This document shows positions 1,384-28,849 of a DNA stretch of 31,484 bases, in pieces; within the stretch, counting starts at the first letter, position 1, and each line of letters opens with the position of its first letter. The notes under the pieces were generated by a model. The model did no database searches. It was not told the DNA's origin and saw only the letters and a program-made list of their open reading frames with translations. A program made the translations under genes and the position numbers. This stretch comes from a virus, in IMG/VR virus record IMGVR_UViG_3300028394_000223, positions 1 to 31,484 of that record. One strand, written 5' to 3'.

Positions 1384-3540
1384 TCATGCCAATTCTGCGT
1401 TGAATGTGGATGCCTCATTGACGTAGAATCGCTTCGTTTGGCCGTCAAGAACCATCCTGATTCGGTGCTGAAACTCGACTGTCTTGCGAGCCGAATCATA
1501 GTTGTCACTATTGCCACCGATGCCACGCTTCAGGTCTGTGGCCTTGATGCCAGGATTAGATCGCACGAAGTCCACAATCTCATCTTCCAACTTCTTCGCC
1601 CCAAATGTGCTGCGGTTGATTTCAGCGCCAGCGGTCACCTCACGGGTGGCAGGATTCCAACTGAGGTGGCGTTCTTCCATCTCCACGTCACGGCCACTAG
1701 CTGACAGGAATCGTTCACCATCTTTGTTCTTGTTGAGCATCCATCGGACATCTGCCCAGTCATCAAGTCTGGTTGCGCCTCTGGCTCGTTCTATGCCGTT
1801 TTCCTGCGCCCTACCGGTGTGAGTGGTCAGCAGTAGGTTGTCTACCCCTGCTCGTTCCTTGATAACGTCAAGCGTTTCTAGGAACACTCCGACCTCACTG
1901 TTGCTGTTTTCGTCGCCTGATCCTGAGAATGCTCGGGCGAATGGGTCAACAATCCATGTCTGACAGTTGAGTTCTTGCAGGATGTCAACCATCTGGTCTT
2001 CGATGTGTTGCACTGTCAGGGGCATTCTGCGCCCTCGTAGGTGGACTAGGGTGATGTGTTCGAGGTTGGTGATTCCTGCATCTCTGAGCCACCTGCGATA
2101 GGTTCGCTCGTCAACTTCATAGTTGAAGACCACAATTCGCCCTTGGTGCTGGTCAATGTCGAACTTTCCTAGAAATGCTTTCTGGTCTGCCAGTGCCTTG
2201 ATGAAGTTGTTGACCAGTGTGGTCTTGCCTGATTTGTAGGCAGCGGCTAGCAGGATGTTTGAACCGGTCGGGAACAGTTCCTTGATAAGCCATGTCGTAT
2301 CAACATCGGGAAGTTCAAGTTCTCGGGCGAGGTTGGCGGTGTAGATTGGCGGCTCGTAGAGTTTGGCTGCCTGTTCGTTCTTGAGGTGTTCCCTTGCCAT
2401 CTGACGAATCCGCTGTTGTTGAATCTCAGCTGCGAGCATGAGTTCTTGTCCTCGGTTTTGTCCCCCCTCTTCCAACACTTCACCTGTGTCTGGGTCGACG
2501 TTTGTGGGCATCTGGAACGCTGGCAGGGAATAATCTGGAACAATGGCAATACTTCCGTACCCTTGACCTCTGAGCGCCTTGGTGGACTGTTTGAAGGCAT
2601 CCTCACTTAGTGAACCGAAGGTGAACAGCGTGAATACGGCCCACTTCGAATAAGGCTTCTCTTGCTCGAACTGGGTTGAGGTGCTGAACACATAAAGGTT
2701 GTCAGACTCGGTGCGACCTGTCGTGGCGCTGATGCCGTGATCCTTGCCCGGTCTTGTCCATTGGGTTTCACCTGAGCGCATGGTCATGATCTTCTTCCAG
2801 CCAGCAGGAATGAGCAGTTCATCCCAAGTGGTTCGGGCGTTGTAGTCATCACCTGGGCTGAGGTTGCCGTCTGGAATCTTGGTGGTGATGGATCGCACGA
2901 TTTCTTCTTGCACTGGCATCTCATCGAACAGCATGAACAGCAGGTGCAACTCTTGGCGCTCATCTTCAGTGAACGTCACAATGTCGGCTGGGGTCTTACC
3001 TTCGAGCCTGACCCAAGGCTTGCCTGACGGGTGGACTGTGCCACCTGACGGAGCGACGACGACGAACCCACCTTCGCCTCGGGTTTCAATCCAGCATTCG
3101 GGGTTGTCGTTTGCGCCTGGTCGCTGGGCGAGTTTGGTGTTGCCTGGCACGTCACCGTCGATGCGGTAGAGCCAATGGATGCCACCTGACGGGGTCATCT
3201 CAATGTAGGTGGATTGCAGCTTGTCCCAGATGTCGCCAATTTCGGCCTTGTGGGCGAGTTCTCGGGCTTCATCAAGTATCCCTGCTGCCACTGCCCGACC
3301 TTCAAGTTCGAGCATTTCAAGGTTGCCACTGACTTTGCCAGTAATGATGCCGAACCCTTGAGCGTTGGTTGCCCATGTCACCAGTTGTTCTGGCGTTGTC
3401 ATGTCGGTCTGTGCCTGTTTCCATGATCCTGCCGGTGCTTTCGAGCCGTCTTCACGAACTGGCACGACATTGACACCTGCGAGCAGGAACTCTAGGGCGG
3501 AATGGAGTGGCGAGGTTGTCGGTTGTGGGTCGGGGTTCAT
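1384..3540 (-). CDS. Primase-polymerase/helicase fusion replication protein
   Basis: A 718-residue replication protein. Residues ~12-185 match the bifunctional primase/polymerase (Prim-Pol) fold: the acidic strand NLEMLELEG (73-81), the histidine motif PSGGIHWLY (117-125) and ETRGEGGFVVVAP (152-164). Residues ~405-640 are a RecA-like ATPase of the RepA/AAA_25 type: Walker A AAYKSGKTT (433-441), Walker B TWIVDP (528-533) and LTTH (571-574). The C-terminus (~650-710) resembles a winged helix. Together these would prime and unwind DNA at the phage origin. The catalytic acids of Prim-Pol appear as E78/E80 rather than the more usual D-x-D. The start ATG has AGGA six bases upstream. No DNA polymerase gene was seen, so the host polymerase is probably used. 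Confidence 0.88.
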   Translation of the reverse strand: MNPDPQPTTSPLHSALEFLLAGVNVVPVREDGSKAPAGSWKQAQTDMTTPEQLVTWATNAQGFGIITGKVSGNLEMLELEGRAVAAGILDEARELAHKAEIGDIWDKLQSTYIEMTPSGGIHWLYRIDGDVPGNTKLAQRPGANDNPECWIETRGEGGFVVVAPSGGTVHPSGKPWVRLEGKTPADIVTFTEDERQELHLLFMLFDEMPVQEEIVRSITTKIPDGNLSPGDDYNARTTWDELLIPAGWKKIMTMRSGETQWTRPGKDHGISATTGRTESDNLYVFSTSTQFEQEKPYSKWAVFTLFTFGSLSEDAFKQSTKALRGQGYGSIAIVPDYSLPAFQMPTNVDPDTGEVLEEGGQNRGQELMLAAEIQQQRIRQMAREHLKNEQAAKLYEPPIYTANLARELELPDVDTTWLIKELFPTGSNILLAAAYKSGKTTLVNNFIKALADQKAFLGKFDIDQHQGRIVVFNYEVDERTYRRWLRDAGITNLEHITLVHLRGRRMPLTVQHIEDQMVDILQELNCQTWIVDPFARAFSGSGDENSNSEVGVFLETLDVIKERAGVDNLLLTTHTGRAQENGIERARGATRLDDWADVRWMLNKNKDGERFLSASGRDVEMEERHLSWNPATREVTAGAEINRSTFGAKKLEDEIVDFVRSNPGIKATDLKRGIGGNSDNYDSARKTVEFQHRIRMVLDGQTKRFYVNEASTFNAELA

Positions 3541-6454: not shown

Positions 6455-6690
6455 AGTTCAATCCCCGTTTCACGAGCGAGGCTGACACCGATTGGTGAAC
6501 CTGTGGCGTTGTCCTTGAGGGCCTGAGTCGCATTCCTTGCCTGAGCGAGTTTGATGCGCTGACGGTCAATCTCCATCTTCCCCATCAACTTGTCAGCTGC
6601 AATTCGCAGGTTGCGGATGGTCACGAATCTTCCCACCTGGTAGGCGGTGAAGGCGATGACGAGATTCGTCAGCCAGAATAGTGTGTTCAT
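6451..6690 (-). CDS. 79-residue single-pass membrane protein
   Basis: Starts MNTLFWLTNLVIAFTAYQVG: a hydrophobic N-terminal segment (~3-21), then a basic helical stretch (RNLRIAADKLMGKMEIDRQR) that would lie in the cytoplasm. I use ATG at 6690-6688 because GGACAA lies just before it and it overlaps the stop of the WhiB-like gene (ATGA); the longer frame starts inside that gene. Function unknown. Confidence 0.65.
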   Translation of the reverse strand: MNTLFWLTNLVIAFTAYQVGRFVTIRNLRIAADKLMGKMEIDRQRIKLAQARNATQALKDNATGSPIGVSLARETGIEL

Positions 6691-7106
6691 TTGTCCTTGT
6701 CCTTTGTTTGTTGTTTCTTGCCTTGGTTCTTCCACTTCATGAACGATGCCAGCAGAATGCCAACCTCGTCACAAGCGTCTTGCAGTGTGTAACCCAGCCC
6801 CATCAACCGAACGACTTCGTTTGAGTTGCCACGCCTGACTCTACTTCGGTGTGCCGACATTTTCCGACGCTCTTCAGGTGACACGCCGCCGAAGTATCCG
6901 TTGAAGTCTTTGTTGTCCAGTGCCATTTGTAGGCACTCACGCTTCATTGGGCAGCCTTGACAGATGGCCTGAATCATTGGTTCAGATGCCTCAATCTCTT
7001 CCAGCGAGGTCGGAAAGAACAGGTCTGGAAAGATGGTGTCTGCACAATGGGCGGTTTCCCACCTGGTCGCATTGCCAAAGGCGAAATTGAAAGATTGCGC
7101 TTTCAT
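6687..7106 (-). CDS. WhiB-family iron-sulfur regulator (first copy)
   Basis: A 139-residue protein with the four WhiB cysteines C21, C49, C52 and C58 (AICQGCPMKRECL), and the turn GYFGG (70-74) followed by SPEERRK, where most WhiB proteins have G[VI]WGG. WhiB proteins bind a 4Fe-4S cluster and act with the host sigma factor; phage copies can override host regulation. The C-terminal ~40 residues (VVRLMGLGYTLQDACDEVGI) add a helix-turn-helix-like segment that is not part of the short WhiB core. It overlaps genes on both sides by ATGA. Confidence 0.88.
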   Translation of the reverse strand: MKAQSFNFAFGNATRWETAHCADTIFPDLFFPTSLEEIEASEPMIQAICQGCPMKRECLQMALDNKDFNGYFGGVSPEERRKMSAHRSRVRRGNSNEVVRLMGLGYTLQDACDEVGILLASFMKWKNQGKKQQTKDKDK

Positions 7107-7444: not shown

Positions 7445-7539
7445 CGGGTGAACCCTGAACAGTATCGGCAGAGCCAAATCTTGCCCTTCTCGTACCACCG
7501 AAGTTCTCGGCAGCAATCGCCACATAACGGATTGCTCAT
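7441..7539 (-). CDS. 32-residue zinc-ribbon micro-protein
   Basis: A micro-gene with ATG at 7539-7537 overlapping the second WhiB stop (ATGA) and TGA at 7443-7441 overlapping the resolvase start (ATGA). The product has C6, C9 and C10 (LCGDCC) and, 14 residues on, C24 and C27 (LCRYC), a compact four-cysteine zinc ribbon. Exact coupling at both ends and a functional-looking motif support it as a real gene despite its size. It may bind nucleic acid or a neighbouring protein. Confidence 0.7.
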   Translation of the reverse strand: MSNPLCGDCCRELRWYEKGKIWLCRYCSGFTR

Positions 7540-7889
7540 GCCACATTCTCCTGTTCGGCTTTGCGCTTTGCCCGTTGCCTTCGGGCTGAAATGGCGGCAT
7601 CACTTTGAGCCTTCATTGCGTCGGTCGTATATTGGGTGTGAATCTGGACTGCCTTGATGCCCAAATCTCGGCGAAGGTGTCGGCGCTGATTCACGCCAGT
7701 GCCAGCCCATACACCGTCAACCTCAACGTGCAAGGCATAGGTGAGGCAAGCTTTGGCGACCGGACATTCAGCACACATCTTCTTGATGGTCTGGCAGGTG
7801 TTCACGCCAGTTTCAGGGAAGAACAGTTCGGTGTCGATGCCAACACATAAGCCTTGGCTCAGGTCTGGGAACTCGTATGGATCACTCAT
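7536..7889 (-). CDS. WhiB-family iron-sulfur regulator (second copy)
   Basis: A 117-residue protein with cysteines C15, C39, C42 and C48 (KKMCAECPVAKACL), an extra C32, and the WhiB turn GVWAG (59-63). A basic C-terminal tail (ARRQRAKRKAEQ) could contact DNA. It differs clearly from the other WhiB copy, so the pair is not a recent duplication. It overlaps neighbours by ATGA at both ends and is likely to redirect host transcription early in infection. Confidence 0.88.
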   Translation of the reverse strand: MSDPYEFPDLSQGLCVGIDTELFFPETGVNTCQTIKKMCAECPVAKACLTYALHVEVDGVWAGTGVNQRRHLRRDLGIKAVQIHTQYTTDAMKAQSDAAISARRQRAKRKAEQENVA

Positions 7890-23714: not shown

Positions 23715-24401
23715 TTATTTGCTTGACAGCCAGAGATCGTGCTGGCGCTCATCAAGCCAGAATTGTTTGTGATGACCCAAGATTGCGCCAGTGTGGGCAA
23801 AGATGGGGAAACCTAGAGCCGTCGCCTTACGACAGAACAGCAAGTCTTCACTGAACCAACGGCCAGCGATAGCACCGTCAAAGAACCAACACCAGTCAGT
23901 GCCTTGGTTAGGGTTGGCATTCTCACGCATTGACTCAAGAACCGAACGATGAACCATAAGGCAACCAGTGCCAGCCCCGTCGATTTGGACAATCTGATTC
24001 TTCGGGTATTTGTCCAACGGAATCATTGCCCCGTCAGCTGCCAACTCGTAGATTGCAGGGACAGGTCGAAGTGCCTCATTCTCAAAGAACGCTGCGAAGA
24101 CAAGACCGGCAACAATCGGGCGGTCATCCTTGTGGGCAGTTTCAATGAGCAGGTCAAAAGCCGACAAAGGCAACGTCTGGTCTGAGTCAATCATCAACAA
24201 CCAGTCGGCGTGAGAATCATCAAGGAAGTTCTTCACAATAAGATTGCGAGTTCGAGCCAGAAGTCCAAGCCCTTGAACACATTGCAGTGAGTCAATCCTT
24301 GGGCGACGTTCACGCATCAGGCCGACAAGGTCAATCGTCAACTGTGTGTCAATAGTGCCATCGTGAGGAATGGCGATGCACACAGTTTCCCGTGACCTCA
24401 T
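23715..24401 (-). CDS. Glycosyltransferase-like protein next to the capsid gene
   Basis: A 228-residue GT-A-like enzyme: start VCIAIPHDGTIDTQLTIDLV, the metal/sugar motif MIDSDQT (70-76), GAGTGCLMVHR (~142-152) and the acid motif SEDLLFCRKA (~184-193). Phage enzymes of this type can glycosylate virion proteins. Its ATG overlaps the stop of the small gene upstream (ATGA), two genes from the major capsid protein, so the capsid or fibre is a likely target. Acceptor is not known. Confidence 0.72.
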   Translation of the reverse strand: MRSRETVCIAIPHDGTIDTQLTIDLVGLMRERRPRIDSLQCVQGLGLLARTRNLIVKNFLDDSHADWLLMIDSDQTLPLSAFDLLIETAHKDDRPIVAGLVFAAFFENEALRPVPAIYELAADGAMIPLDKYPKNQIVQIDGAGTGCLMVHRSVLESMRENANPNQGTDWCWFFDGAIAGRWFSEDLLFCRKATALGFPIFAHTGAILGHHKQFWLDERQHDLWLSSK

Positions 24402-24624: not shown

Positions 24625-25977
24625 TTAGTAACCTGAAGGTGTCACAGCGCCAGTTCCACTGATAGCGGAAACAGACTTTGCGAAGCGGTGAATCAGTGCA
24701 GCGTAACCGTAGACCTGGAAACGAACGGTGAGGTTCGCTGACAGTACGTCCGGAAGAACACGAGTCTTCACGCCTGATTCGAACAGGTAGCTGTCGCTGA
24801 ACTTGCCAACCAAGATTGGTGACTGGTTCGTGCTTGCACCAGCAGTGTTCTTGAGTGTTGCGTCAACGTAGACAGGCACACCGTAGATAGAACCAACAAG
24901 ACCAGCAGCAGCGCCAGGAGCAGTTGTGATACCGCCAGCGTTGAATGGGCCGTTTGCAGTTGGAACGATGAGTGGGCGGCTTGAGCCATCCACCTGTGCG
25001 GCCAACCAGTACCAAGTAGCCGGGGCCATTACGATAGCCTCTACATCCTTGTAACGGTTAGTGACAACCTGTGAGATTGCCTTCGTGATAGCGCCAAGGC
25101 CACCAGTTGCAGATGGAGTGGTTTCAGTCCAAGTGGTTGGGATACCGTTTGTGCTATCCGTACCAAGTGTGACGAAGCCCTTCAGTGAGCCAGCAGTTCC
25201 AGCGCCATTGCCTGAAACAGCAGAGTTCAACTGCAATGCGTAGTCAGCCATCAAGTCGCCGAAGATTAGCTTGTCAAGACCGCCACTGATTGGTGACTGC
25301 TCTACTAGCTGAATCGACACGTTCTGGAAACCGCTGATGGTTTCAACACGGCCAGTGACCGTTGATGTAACCATGTCACGAGGTGACGTTGGTGCGTAGG
25401 TGCTTGAGTTGTCAGCAGCCTGGAAACCGGTGCGAGTACCTGTGGTGATAGCAGGAATGTTGATGCTATCAGTGCCAGCAGGAAGCGCCATGTTTGTGGT
25501 CAGGTTAGCGGTGACACGGGCAGCACGAGCGAACTCTGCATACTCGTTGATGAGGTACAAAGGTGGAACGAAGTCACCACCGCTTGTGTCGGTGCGGTTG
25601 ATGTCACGAAGTTCAACAGACATTTCTGACTGGTGACGATTCAGACGGTCGAACGCATCACGGTCGCCACGAAGTTGAGCGTTGATCATGTCACGAGCGA
25701 AAGAGTTATCTGAACCCTTGTCGTAAGTCATGGCCTCACGGGTAACAACGGCAGAACCGAAGGTCGGAACATTCGCAGCAGAGCGAACTTCCTTGAGTTC
25801 AGCAGTGCGAGCCTCTAGGGCTTCTGCTGCGTCAATCTTGCTGTCGAGATCCTTGATCTCTGCGTGACGTGCTTCTGCTGCATCTAGTGCCTCAGTAGTC
25901 ACTTCACCAGCAAGGAGTGCCTCAGCATCAGCTGCGGCGGTTGCACGAGATTCGCGCAAAGAGTCCAACATGGACAT
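24625..25977 (-). CDS. Major capsid protein (HK97 fold)
   Basis: A 450-residue capsid protein. Residues ~1-75 are a charged coiled coil (TEALDAAEARHAEIKDLDSK; AEALEARTAELKEVRSA), the delta/scaffold domain removed by the protease. The rest has HK97 features: GGDFVPPLYLINEYAEFARA (N-arm/E-loop region), the P-domain GFQNVSIQLVEQSPISGGLD and the A-domain end KTRVLPDVLSANLTVRFQVY. It forms the icosahedral shell. The strong AAGGAG before its ATG fits the most abundant protein. A separate scaffold gene was not seen. Confidence 0.92.
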   Translation of the reverse strand: MSMLDSLRESRATAAADAEALLAGEVTTEALDAAEARHAEIKDLDSKIDAAEALEARTAELKEVRSAANVPTFGSAVVTREAMTYDKGSDNSFARDMINAQLRGDRDAFDRLNRHQSEMSVELRDINRTDTSGGDFVPPLYLINEYAEFARAARVTANLTTNMALPAGTDSINIPAITTGTRTGFQAADNSSTYAPTSPRDMVTSTVTGRVETISGFQNVSIQLVEQSPISGGLDKLIFGDLMADYALQLNSAVSGNGAGTAGSLKGFVTLGTDSTNGIPTTWTETTPSATGGLGAITKAISQVVTNRYKDVEAIVMAPATWYWLAAQVDGSSRPLIVPTANGPFNAGGITTAPGAAAGLVGSIYGVPVYVDATLKNTAGASTNQSPILVGKFSDSYLFESGVKTRVLPDVLSANLTVRFQVYGYAALIHRFAKSVSAISGTGAVTPSGY

Positions 25978-26054: not shown

Positions 26055-27632
26055 CTAGAGAGAATCAAGTTTGAACTTCAAAGCAAGTTTGCGCTTGCGA
26101 AGTTCTAGTTCATCTTCAACGGAATCTTCCGAACGCATTCCGACAGATGAAGCGTCATAGGCTGGCCATGTCACAACTGAAACCTCAAACAGGTTCAGGT
26201 CAGTGAGTGTGCGAAGACCTTCCTCACGAGTGTCACCGCCAGGAGCAACACTGAAAGCGAATGACATCTTGTCAACGTCGCCACGAGTAAGAGCCGAAGC
26301 CAACTCAGCAGCACGAGGATTGGATGGGTCAAGGGTTGCTTCCATGCGAAGACCGACCTCATCCTCAGACAGGGTCAACGTGCCACCCTGCGTCGAGGCA
26401 AGAGGCAACTGGTCAGTGTCATGGTTGACAAGTAAGAACACAGGGTCGCCAGACTTGAGCGATCGAGTGAAAGCGCCGGGCGCAATCATCTCACGGAAGT
26501 TCAGGCCAGTGGCTTCCTTGTTGAACTGTGCAGCGTAGCCACCAATTCGAAGTGAACCGTCGTCAGTAGCGATGGCACGAACCTCAGCCTCAAAGGTGAT
26601 GCGCTCGGCAGATGCAATGGCAGACTTGCGTTCTTCAATCATTGTCACTTCTTCCTGTTGCCCTGTTGTTTCCTGCGACTCAATCAAGTCTGAATCTGAA
26701 CGAAGGTCGTCAATCGACTGCGCCATGTAATCCATTGCGGTCACATCTTCAGCCACGTCATCTTCATCAACACCTTCGGTGTCAAGTGAATCAACCGCTG
26801 GCTCAGTAACTTCTTCACCAAGTGAAGCGGTCAGTTGCCACTTGTAGAACTGTTGGTCGTCGATAGCGCCAGCGATAAAGTTGGCGATTCCCTGCTGGTT
26901 GTAATTGTTGGCACACTCAAACACATAGGACAGTTGATTGAGGAACACATCATTGGCAGTTAGTAGGTCACGGGCAAGGCTCATTGGATCTTGACCAGGA
27001 GTTGCATCCTGCAAGTATCCAAGCTTGATGAAGTCGGCAAGATTAGACGGAGCAACCACACCAATCTTGCGAAGGTTCTCAGCGATAGGGTCAATCAGTT
27101 CATAAGCGGTTTCATAAATCTTCTGGAACAGTTTGTGGTATTCGCTGAAGTCAGCGCCCTTGACATTCCAGTGTGCGCCATGCGCTCTGAAGTAGAACTG
27201 AACAGCAGTTCCAAGAAGTTCAGACAACTCTTCGGGCAAGTTCGAAGCTGTTTCAGTTTCTTCCATGTCACGAGATTCCATGCTTTCGCCTTCCAATGAA
27301 GCCACTCGGGCAGATAGTTGTTCTCTAATTTTCGACGACCAAGTGAAACCTGCATCGCCGCCCCAAGCAGCCCAAGCAACTCGACCGGCGCTCGGATAGC
27401 CTTCATCGCCAGGGTTGAATCCCTGACCCTTCTTGTCGACCTCGTGACGTGCTAAGAATGAATACATCCTCAAGACAACATCGAGCGACACAGACTTGCC
27501 AGTCGCCAAATCGCTTGCACGTTTGCGACCGGTATCGGTGAAACCTGAACCAGCCTTGCCATCGGCAATCCATGCCAAAGCCCTCTTGGCTTCGTCACGA
27601 ACTCCCTGCGGTGGTCGGAATGTTTCGGCCAT
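26055..27632 (-). CDS. Head maturation protease fused to a Dps/ferritin-like domain
   Basis: A 525-residue three-part protein. Residues ~1-110 are a phage morphogenesis-type segment (DLATGKSVSLDVVLRMYSFL; YPSAGRVAWAAWGGDAGF). Residues ~128-275 are a Dps-like four-helix domain: H154 (AHWNVKG), H166 (EYHKLF), D181 and E185 (LIDPIAEN) have the same spacing as H51, H63, D78 and E82 of the E. coli Dps ferroxidase site; Q170 stands where Dps has D67. An acidic linker (~273-330) follows. Residues 331-525 are an HK97-type protease with H404 (LVNHD), S457 (KMSFAF) and E483. An internal ATG at 26642-26640 (M331) has AGGAAG upstream. The start overlaps the portal stop (TGATG). Confidence 0.88.
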   Translation of the reverse strand: MAETFRPPQGVRDEAKRALAWIADGKAGSGFTDTGRKRASDLATGKSVSLDVVLRMYSFLARHEVDKKGQGFNPGDEGYPSAGRVAWAAWGGDAGFTWSSKIREQLSARVASLEGESMESRDMEETETASNLPEELSELLGTAVQFYFRAHGAHWNVKGADFSEYHKLFQKIYETAYELIDPIAENLRKIGVVAPSNLADFIKLGYLQDATPGQDPMSLARDLLTANDVFLNQLSYVFECANNYNQQGIANFIAGAIDDQQFYKWQLTASLGEEVTEPAVDSLDTEGVDEDDVAEDVTAMDYMAQSIDDLRSDSDLIESQETTGQQEEVTMIEERKSAIASAERITFEAEVRAIATDDGSLRIGGYAAQFNKEATGLNFREMIAPGAFTRSLKSGDPVFLLVNHDTDQLPLASTQGGTLTLSEDEVGLRMEATLDPSNPRAAELASALTRGDVDKMSFAFSVAPGGDTREEGLRTLTDLNLFEVSVVTWPAYDASSVGMRSEDSVEDELELRKRKLALKFKLDSL

Positions 27633-28849
27633 CAGCTAAGAACTCCCATGACAGGTGCGCTCGGATCAGCATCTTGTCCAAGTTCTTGGCCGTCGTTCAC
27701 CAATGCACCAGGCAACGCCTGATGGAATCCGTCGCCGCCATCGTAAGGTTCAAAGCCAAGGGTTTGACGTGCCTCGTTGGGACTCATGACACCTGCCATG
27801 ATTTGAACCGAGTTGACCCTTGCACGAGTCATTGAGTCGGTACGCAATAGCGAAGCCAAATCGAACACAACATCCTGACCAACTGGCAACAGTTCAGACA
27901 GGGCAGTTTCAAGACGGCGAACCCAAGGGGTCAACGTATGTGTCAAGAAGTTCAGGTTCGCTTGCTCTACGTTTTGATAGGTCTGGTTGTCGCCAGTAGC
28001 GCCAATGAGGTGACCGGGGATTCGGTAGACCCGAGCGATGTCACGAATCAACTGCTCACGGGTTGCGATCATTTCCATGTCAGCTGCACTGGTCGTGATA
28101 GGCGTGAACTTCAGGCCATCAGACAACACCGCTGGACGACGACGGCGACGGTGGGTTGCTTCCCATGTTCCCTGAATTGTGCGAGCCTGGTCAAGCGTCA
28201 ACTTCTGGTCAGTGCTAAGAACGCCAGAAGGGGTTGCGCCTTCACCGTAGAACTGTGACAGGTGACGATCCATTGCCAGTGAAAGACCGACAAGGGTTCG
28301 TGACTGAATCAAAGGTGACACACCAACCAACGACTGTGGCGGTGTGAACCAACGGATATGCATCAAAGAATCGTTTGAAATCTCATTGCCGAGGTGAAGA
28401 TACTTGCGACCAATCTGGTCACCTGTTGGCAGAACCTGCATCTGGTATGGATGCAGTGGCACTAGACCAATGATGTTTCCACGAGCGTCACGGTCTTTGT
28501 GAATGTAAGCGTTGCCGTGAAGGACAAGCGAAGCCATGATTTGATGGATGAACTCGAAGGTGTTCGTTCCTGAAATGATGTCAGGCTGTGCCAAAGCGCT
28601 AGGCAATGGGACACCCTTGCGCTGACCGTCGATGATTTCATAACAGCGAAGCGGAAGCGAAGCCACTGAATCACACAACAAAGTGACAGCAGACATGACG
28701 CTCGAAACGCCAAGGGCAGTCCATTCGTCGATGCGTTCGCCAGAACTTGAGGTGACTTGAGTCTGGCCATACAGCTGGGACAGTGGCGCAACATAGTTGT
28801 TGAACTGCGGATAACGCCCAACTACCGAAGACCGGCGGAGAATGCTCAT
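27632..28849 (-). CDS. Portal protein (HK97 family)
   Basis: A 405-residue portal. Typical motifs are visible: VSSVMSAVTLLCDSVASLPL at the start, the hairpin region with SLVLHGNAYIHKDRD, then RDIARVYRIPGHLIGATGDN and QANLNFLTHTLTPWVRRLE near the end. It forms the twelve-part ring through which DNA enters and leaves. The ATG overlaps the stop of the membrane micro-gene (ATGA) and its own stop overlaps the protease start. Confidence 0.92.
   Translation of the reverse strand: MSILRRSSVVGRYPQFNNYVAPLSQLYGQTQVTSSSGERIDEWTALGVSSVMSAVTLLCDSVASLPLRCYEIIDGQRKGVPLPSALAQPDIISGTNTFEFIHQIMASLVLHGNAYIHKDRDARGNIIGLVPLHPYQMQVLPTGDQIGRKYLHLGNEISNDSLMHIRWFTPPQSLVGVSPLIQSRTLVGLSLAMDRHLSQFYGEGATPSGVLSTDQKLTLDQARTIQGTWEATHRRRRRPAVLSDGLKFTPITTSAADMEMIATREQLIRDIARVYRIPGHLIGATGDNQTYQNVEQANLNFLTHTLTPWVRRLETALSELLPVGQDVVFDLASLLRTDSMTRARVNSVQIMAGVMSPNEARQTLGFEPYDGGDGFHQALPGALVNDGQELGQDADPSAPVMGVLS

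Follow-up and report, generated by a model that had tools for sequence, protein, structure and literature searches.

A single open reading frame (ORF) in the window, as we call the whole 31,484-base viral record of metagenomic origin that was analyzed, encodes a Dps mini-ferritin joined to a prohead protease. The ORF (26055..27632, minus strand) starts with the ATG at 27632 and codes for 525 aa; the first-pass annotation had its coordinates right, and the strand is added here. Such fusions, often with other swappable modules, are made by a group of aquatic phages and suggest that in these phages an iron-handling enzyme is loaded into the growing head and cut free there.

The fusion ORF is located between the gene of the portal protein (27632..28849; E 1.5e-76), with which it has one base in common, and that of an HK97-type major capsid protein with an N-terminal scaffold-like (delta-type) region (24625..25977; Phage_capsid E 6.1e-14, phrog_2263 E 8.5e-49). 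This order of portal, fusion, and capsid genes is the one in which an S78 protease is placed. The protein begins with an N module, to which no function is assigned (residues 6-101; 27330..27617; phrog_2859 E 8.5e-38; helices over residues 9-118 in the model), and continues with the Dps domain, recognized by profile matches and predicted fold (residues 129-272; 26817..27248), an acidic disordered linker that is the site of extra modules in relatives (residues 274-326; 26655..26813), and the serine protease domain of the S78 head maturation family (residues 349-502; 26127..26588; Peptidase_S78 E 7.8e-40, phrog_80 E 9.5e-49). All of these features are on the minus strand.

Elsewhere in the window there are two WhiB-family genes (6687-7106 and 7536-7889, both minus strand), so an actinobacterium is the likely host. 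The window also encodes a 718-aa replication protein with Prim-Pol and AAA domains (RepA-like; 1384-3540, minus strand). Directly after the capsid gene is an ORF with a weak glycosyltransferase-like match (23715-24401, minus strand), perhaps a capsid glycosylation module; glycosyltransferases occupy the same place in phage phiPsal1.

The Dps/ferritin-like domain proposed in the first-pass annotation was confirmed by searches and by structure prediction. Pfam Ferritin matched residues 135-272 (E 3.5e-11), phrog_3636 (Dps-like) matched the fusion ORF (E 2.5e-19), and a phmmer search against solved Dps proteins retrieved V. cholerae Dps (E 1.6e-13). An AlphaFold model of the domain, made with 36 related sequences, had a mean pLDDT of 90.5 and a pTM of 0.83 and contained five helices (14-38, 44-71, 80-86, 98-125, and 129-152 of the model), which form the four-helix bundle with a short BC helix that is typical of Dps. 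Foldseek ranked B. brevis Dps first in the PDB (TM 0.93 by target), the PDB matches listed were Dps-family entries, and VIA-align superposed the model on L. innocua Dps with a Z of about 22 and an rmsd of 1.6 over 148 residues. Neither a different fold nor a misalignment of the ligands was found.

The four ferroxidase ligands are at the positions that had been read from the sequence: H154 (27171..27173), H166 (27135..27137), D181 (27090..27092), and E185 (27078..27080), all on the minus strand and with the Dps spacing of 12, 15, and 4 residues. Each of them, together with W155, was identical in 174 of the 174 phage Dps domains collected, and this invariance argues for iron chemistry. A second part of the earlier proposal, protection of DNA by binding, was not supported. 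The phage Dps domains had a mean net charge of −14.3, the 40 residues that follow them averaged −8.8 and the 25 residues before them 0.1, and by charge count the domains lacked the basic terminal tail that characterizes the DNA-binding subgroup of Dps proteins, though not all Dps. Because the domain is acidic and has no such tail, DNA binding is predicted to be unlikely, and we rejected a nucleoid-type DNA-binding function as the principal role because of these charges.

The protease assignment was also borne out: Peptidase_S78 scored 137 bits against a family cut-off of 21, and across 27 sequences H404 was invariant and S457 and E483 nearly so, the catalytic pattern from which activity is predicted.

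The search for the fusion in other viruses, which the first-pass annotation had proposed as a check, revealed that it is recurrent. Scanning viral contigs yielded 457 related stretches, and a scan with the Dps profile found at least 553 relatives. Among the loci retrieved, 112 ORFs encoded the Dps domain and the same protease in one frame, a count in which some loci overlap on the same contig and which, like all the counts given here, is inflated by related sequences. Contigs of two binned genomes had the same fusion. Like the window, the relatives are of metagenomic origin, the source from which a spurious fusion could arise; recurrence in frame in so many ORFs, from many separate contigs, rules out an assembly error or frame accident, and with the ligands invariant as well we give such an origin practically no credence. 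Taken together, the invariant ligands and the 112 fusions place the observation far beyond chance. No isolate with the fusion was present among 50,697 phage records, in which the best full-length match was the isolate Pontimonas phage phiPsal1, with a HiPIP-like module, the N module, and the protease, without Dps. Dps searches of these records gave only low-identity stand-alone genes.

The N-terminal slot of the protease is modular, and the N module, Dps, a HiPIP-like iron–sulfur module, and a Hva1/TUDOR-like module were all found in it. The fusions had the order N module, Dps, and protease, or Dps and protease, or carried one or two extra modules between Dps and protease. One of these is the TUDOR-like module (Hva1_TUDOR, E down to 5.9e-9). 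Another, module A (~115 aa; '...KYGKAFFYVDE...GSYKLQFAD...GGVDIP...'), matched no Pfam family; it was observed in this position in loci L016, L062, and others, and in one case it preceded Dps, in a different protease lineage (L228). The N module is found widely among head proteins, and in Roseobacter phage CRP-811 (L082) an 816-aa ORF combines it with a TUDOR-like module, an S78 protease, and the capsid domain.

In some relatives a Cys-rich HiPIP-like module, which is not in the window, precedes or replaces Dps. Its profile (A4) matched PDB entry 3h31 with an E of 4.3e-7, the matches listed were HiPIP-type chains only, and four Cys with HiPIP spacing in an aromatic context predict cluster binding; single members were mostly under the Pfam cut-off. 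The module was seen in head-protease or N-module proteins of many phages (L081, which is phiPsal1, L072, L084, L090, L125, L126, L185, and L186), alone or beside Dps, and could be a second iron protein of the prohead. Other relatives have the N module and the protease, with or without the HiPIP-like module, and no Dps, which indicates that Dps is dispensable for assembly in those phages.

Two candidate internal starts were identified in the window, both on the minus strand: GGAAGG followed by the ATG of M118, before Dps (27279..27294), and AGGA followed after a 10-base gap by the ATG of M331, from which the free protease would be made (26640..26656). Of the 38 distinct contexts of the ATG before the protease in relatives, 36 had a Shine–Dalgarno-like site. 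Such sites preceded in-frame ATGs in only 5 of 133 contexts within the Dps domain, in 10% inside the protease, and in 32% in the N module. The Glu codon that forms the site before the protease was GAG in a ratio of 34:3, whereas comparable Glu codons at other places in these ORFs gave 144:330 (Fisher p 8e-14, an optimistic value because related sequences are not independent). At the pre-protease position, ten distinct contexts had GTG or TTG and five had no start codon, and members such as L005, L029, L037, and L071 had no ATG there; the internal start is thus common, not universal. In the window and in many relatives, a similar site precedes the Met with which Dps begins and probably marks a ribosome site there as well. 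From these signatures we infer three nested products: the full fusion, a Dps-protease, and a free protease.

The full-length model contained two linkers with pLDDT below 50 (residues 111-129 and 274-326), as expected of flexible joints that can be cut. Arg followed by Ser, Ala, or Asn (R[SAN]) occurred in 48 of the 70 linkers left after dereplication, compared with a mean of 24.3 and a maximum of 34 in 1000 shuffles (APRSED, FEGRAAAAR, and MGRSATG are examples). The enrichment was modest when only Dps-protease linkers were counted (8 of 19, versus 5.8 in shuffles). No strict cut-site motif could be fixed from the linkers, and R[SAN] is an enrichment and not proof, so we regard these positions as candidate protease sites; the best one in the window is between R311 and S312 (26697..26702, minus strand). 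The HK97 protease cuts its capsid protein after Lys and before Ser. In the capsid protein of the window, alignment of relatives places a candidate site at the end of the N-terminal scaffold-like region, between R65 and S66 (25780..25785, minus strand). At this junction 40 of 41 aligned relatives had Arg and one had Lys, and the following residue was mostly Lys or Ala.

The Dps profile also retrieved members of the same clade in the reverse order, C-terminal to divergent prohead-protease domains, in three groups: L189, L212, and L228 (group a; S78 E between 2e-6 and 3e-8), L197 and L216 (group b; phrog_9427 E 2.9e-50 for L197), and L193 and L202 (group c; phrog_3270 E 2.4e-6 for L193). In groups a and b, long acidic scaffold-like tails follow Dps. 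Stand-alone Dps genes were found inside head gene clusters in L192, L125, and L137. The order in L192 is portal, unknown, N-module protein, Dps, unknown, and major head protein; in L125 it is portal, head-morphogenesis protein, and a HiPIP-N-TUDOR-protease, which the Dps gene then overlaps. The ORFs with HiPIP-like, N, and protease domains in L125 (2864-5083, 740 aa) and L137 (3002-4813, 604 aa) matched in their C-terminal part PHROGs annotated as 'RNA ligase' and 'DNA methyltransferase' as well as head maturation proteases, and those two families are likely mislabelled. In a maximum-likelihood tree of 50 phage rows and 32 cellular rows from about 400 genomes, both sampled for their resemblance to the phage profile, all 50 phage rows were on one side of a branch with a support of 99/100. 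The phage Dps form one phage-specific clade, well apart from the cellular Dps sampled, and the gene context switches several times inside it. The pairing of a single Dps clade with several divergent head proteases, with either partner first, points to the prohead.

The domain resembles the Dps, Dpr, and NAP mini-ferritins of bacteria in fold, BC helix, and ligands, and differs from them in being embedded in a multidomain head protein, in its greater acidity and lack of a basic tail, and in its separate clade. Likewise, the protease shares its domain and the portal-protease-capsid gene order with HK97-type prohead proteases, but has about 330 extra N-terminal residues (Dps and the unknown module) and the internal-start signature. 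Stand-alone Dps of phages (phiEco32/SU10, Lactobacillus, gut, and Streptomyces phages) have the same fold; unlike the domain described here, they are separate genes with 20-36% identity and no protease fusion, and in SU10 Dps is a middle gene. Six peptides of SU10 Dps (35.8% coverage) were detected in a preparation that was PEG-precipitated and not CsCl-purified (PMC4281155). The first-pass annotation knew of no described example, and in the open-access literature searched there was no description of a Dps-protease fusion. Stand-alone phage Dps are known, however, and UniProt has automatic entries from uncultured phages ('DNA-binding protein Dps', 622 aa; 'Prohead protease', 763 aa) with this fold in their predicted structures. 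New here are the acidic linkers rich in Arg followed by Ser, Ala, or Asn, with a matching conserved Arg in the capsid protein, and the internal ribosome-site signatures.

We see a little more than an even chance that the prohead protease carries the Dps mini-ferritin as N-terminal cargo, which is freed and active on iron in the head. The ORF would give the full fusion and, through internal ribosome sites, shorter products including the free protease. The protease would join the capsid protein in the prohead, as HK97-type proteases do in about 60-90 copies, and carry Dps along. Proheads of HK97 have about 60 protease copies and those of D3 about 90 (PMC12749128), so even if part of them were fusions, there would be subunits for several Dps dodecamers per head. 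As long as Dps is joined to a long protein, formation of a dodecamer may be hindered. According to the motif enrichment, the protease would cleave on the C-terminal side of Arg, both within the disordered linkers and where the scaffold-like region of the capsid protein ends, and this would leave Dps and the other modules free inside. There the subunits, perhaps as dimers or dodecamers, could oxidize and sequester Fe2+ through the invariant ligands, which would lessen Fenton damage to virion DNA and protein; in some relatives the HiPIP-like module would share or replace the Dps slot. We count that module as an alternative iron module in the slot, and it supports the cargo model, as do the several gene arrangements of one Dps clade that keep to one place, the head cluster and its proteases. 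Against the model, purified Prohead 2 of the HK97-like phage D3 gives only the band of cleaved capsid protein (PMC12749128), so released cargo might leave the head or be degraded. The relatives that do without Dps, the modest R[SAN] enrichment in Dps-protease linkers, and the possible hindrance of a dodecamer by the fusion also weigh against it. The first-pass reading, a Dps body placed in the capsid and released by proteolysis, holds in part: the fold, the intact ligand set, the protease fusion, and linkers that could be cut are there, and DNA binding is not expected.

The intact ligands would serve equally an enzyme that acts in the cytosol, where the fusion or the cut Dps would lower free iron and reactive oxygen late in the infected cell and the link to the protease would only tie Dps to late expression. 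Ferritin is among the oxidative-stress genes of freshwater phages (Kavagutti et al., 2019; PMC6802176, whose main text does not include the fusion), and gut phages carry stand-alone Dps together with Mn-catalase, for which a host-protection role was proposed (PMC8008677). We nevertheless find this unlikely, though worth keeping in view: a separate gene would do equally well, the protease is kept in all nested products, and Dps is located in head clusters and repeatedly fused to divergent head proteases. A location in the head is shared by the idea that Dps mainly oligomerizes into an internal core or spacer, which would bring proteases together and set how the head assembles, with iron chemistry secondary. 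The fold is that of dodecamer-forming proteins, and some fusions have long acidic scaffold-like tails. However, none of the 174 domains has lost any of the four iron ligands, an N-terminal scaffold-like region is already part of the capsid protein, and related phages do without Dps, which makes such a role quite improbable. We hold it very doubtful that a packaged Dps is ejected with the DNA, as T4 internal proteins are, to protect it or deal with iron as infection begins, since the portal channel is narrower than a folded Dps cage and the domain is acidic. The precedent for ejection is that head proteins of T4 and giant phages are sent to the prohead, cut by its protease, and in some cases ejected (PMC5694885), but that cargo bears a targeting propeptide, whereas in the fusion a single polypeptide comprises both cargo and protease.

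Encapsulins offer a possible working likeness to the cargo model, as HK97-fold shells that hold a ferritin-like protein (PMC9321382, PMC8346489). They are cellular compartments with no phage genome, and their cargo is loaded by recognition sequences. Here, in contrast, a protease would carry the cargo into the head of a phage. There is a reasonable chance that this way of carrying cargo in a virion is of a new type. We know of no phage with an iron-oxidizing enzyme inside its head. The broader proposal, that phages of an entire class use fusion to the protease to load their HK97-type heads with a functional ferroxidase cage and, in relatives, with HiPIP-like modules, by way of a swappable slot and nested translation, is tentative, and we put it at rather less than an even chance. 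If it is true, these virions would have their own iron chemistry, as a viral counterpart of ferritin-loaded encapsulins, and would be actively defended against iron-driven oxidative damage in sunlit water. The origin of HK97-type shells that hold ferritin could then be tested from the viral side, and a natural cargo-loading system with release by a protease would be at hand. Because one Dps clade has been joined repeatedly to different head proteases, a function in the prohead is a sharp and testable prediction.
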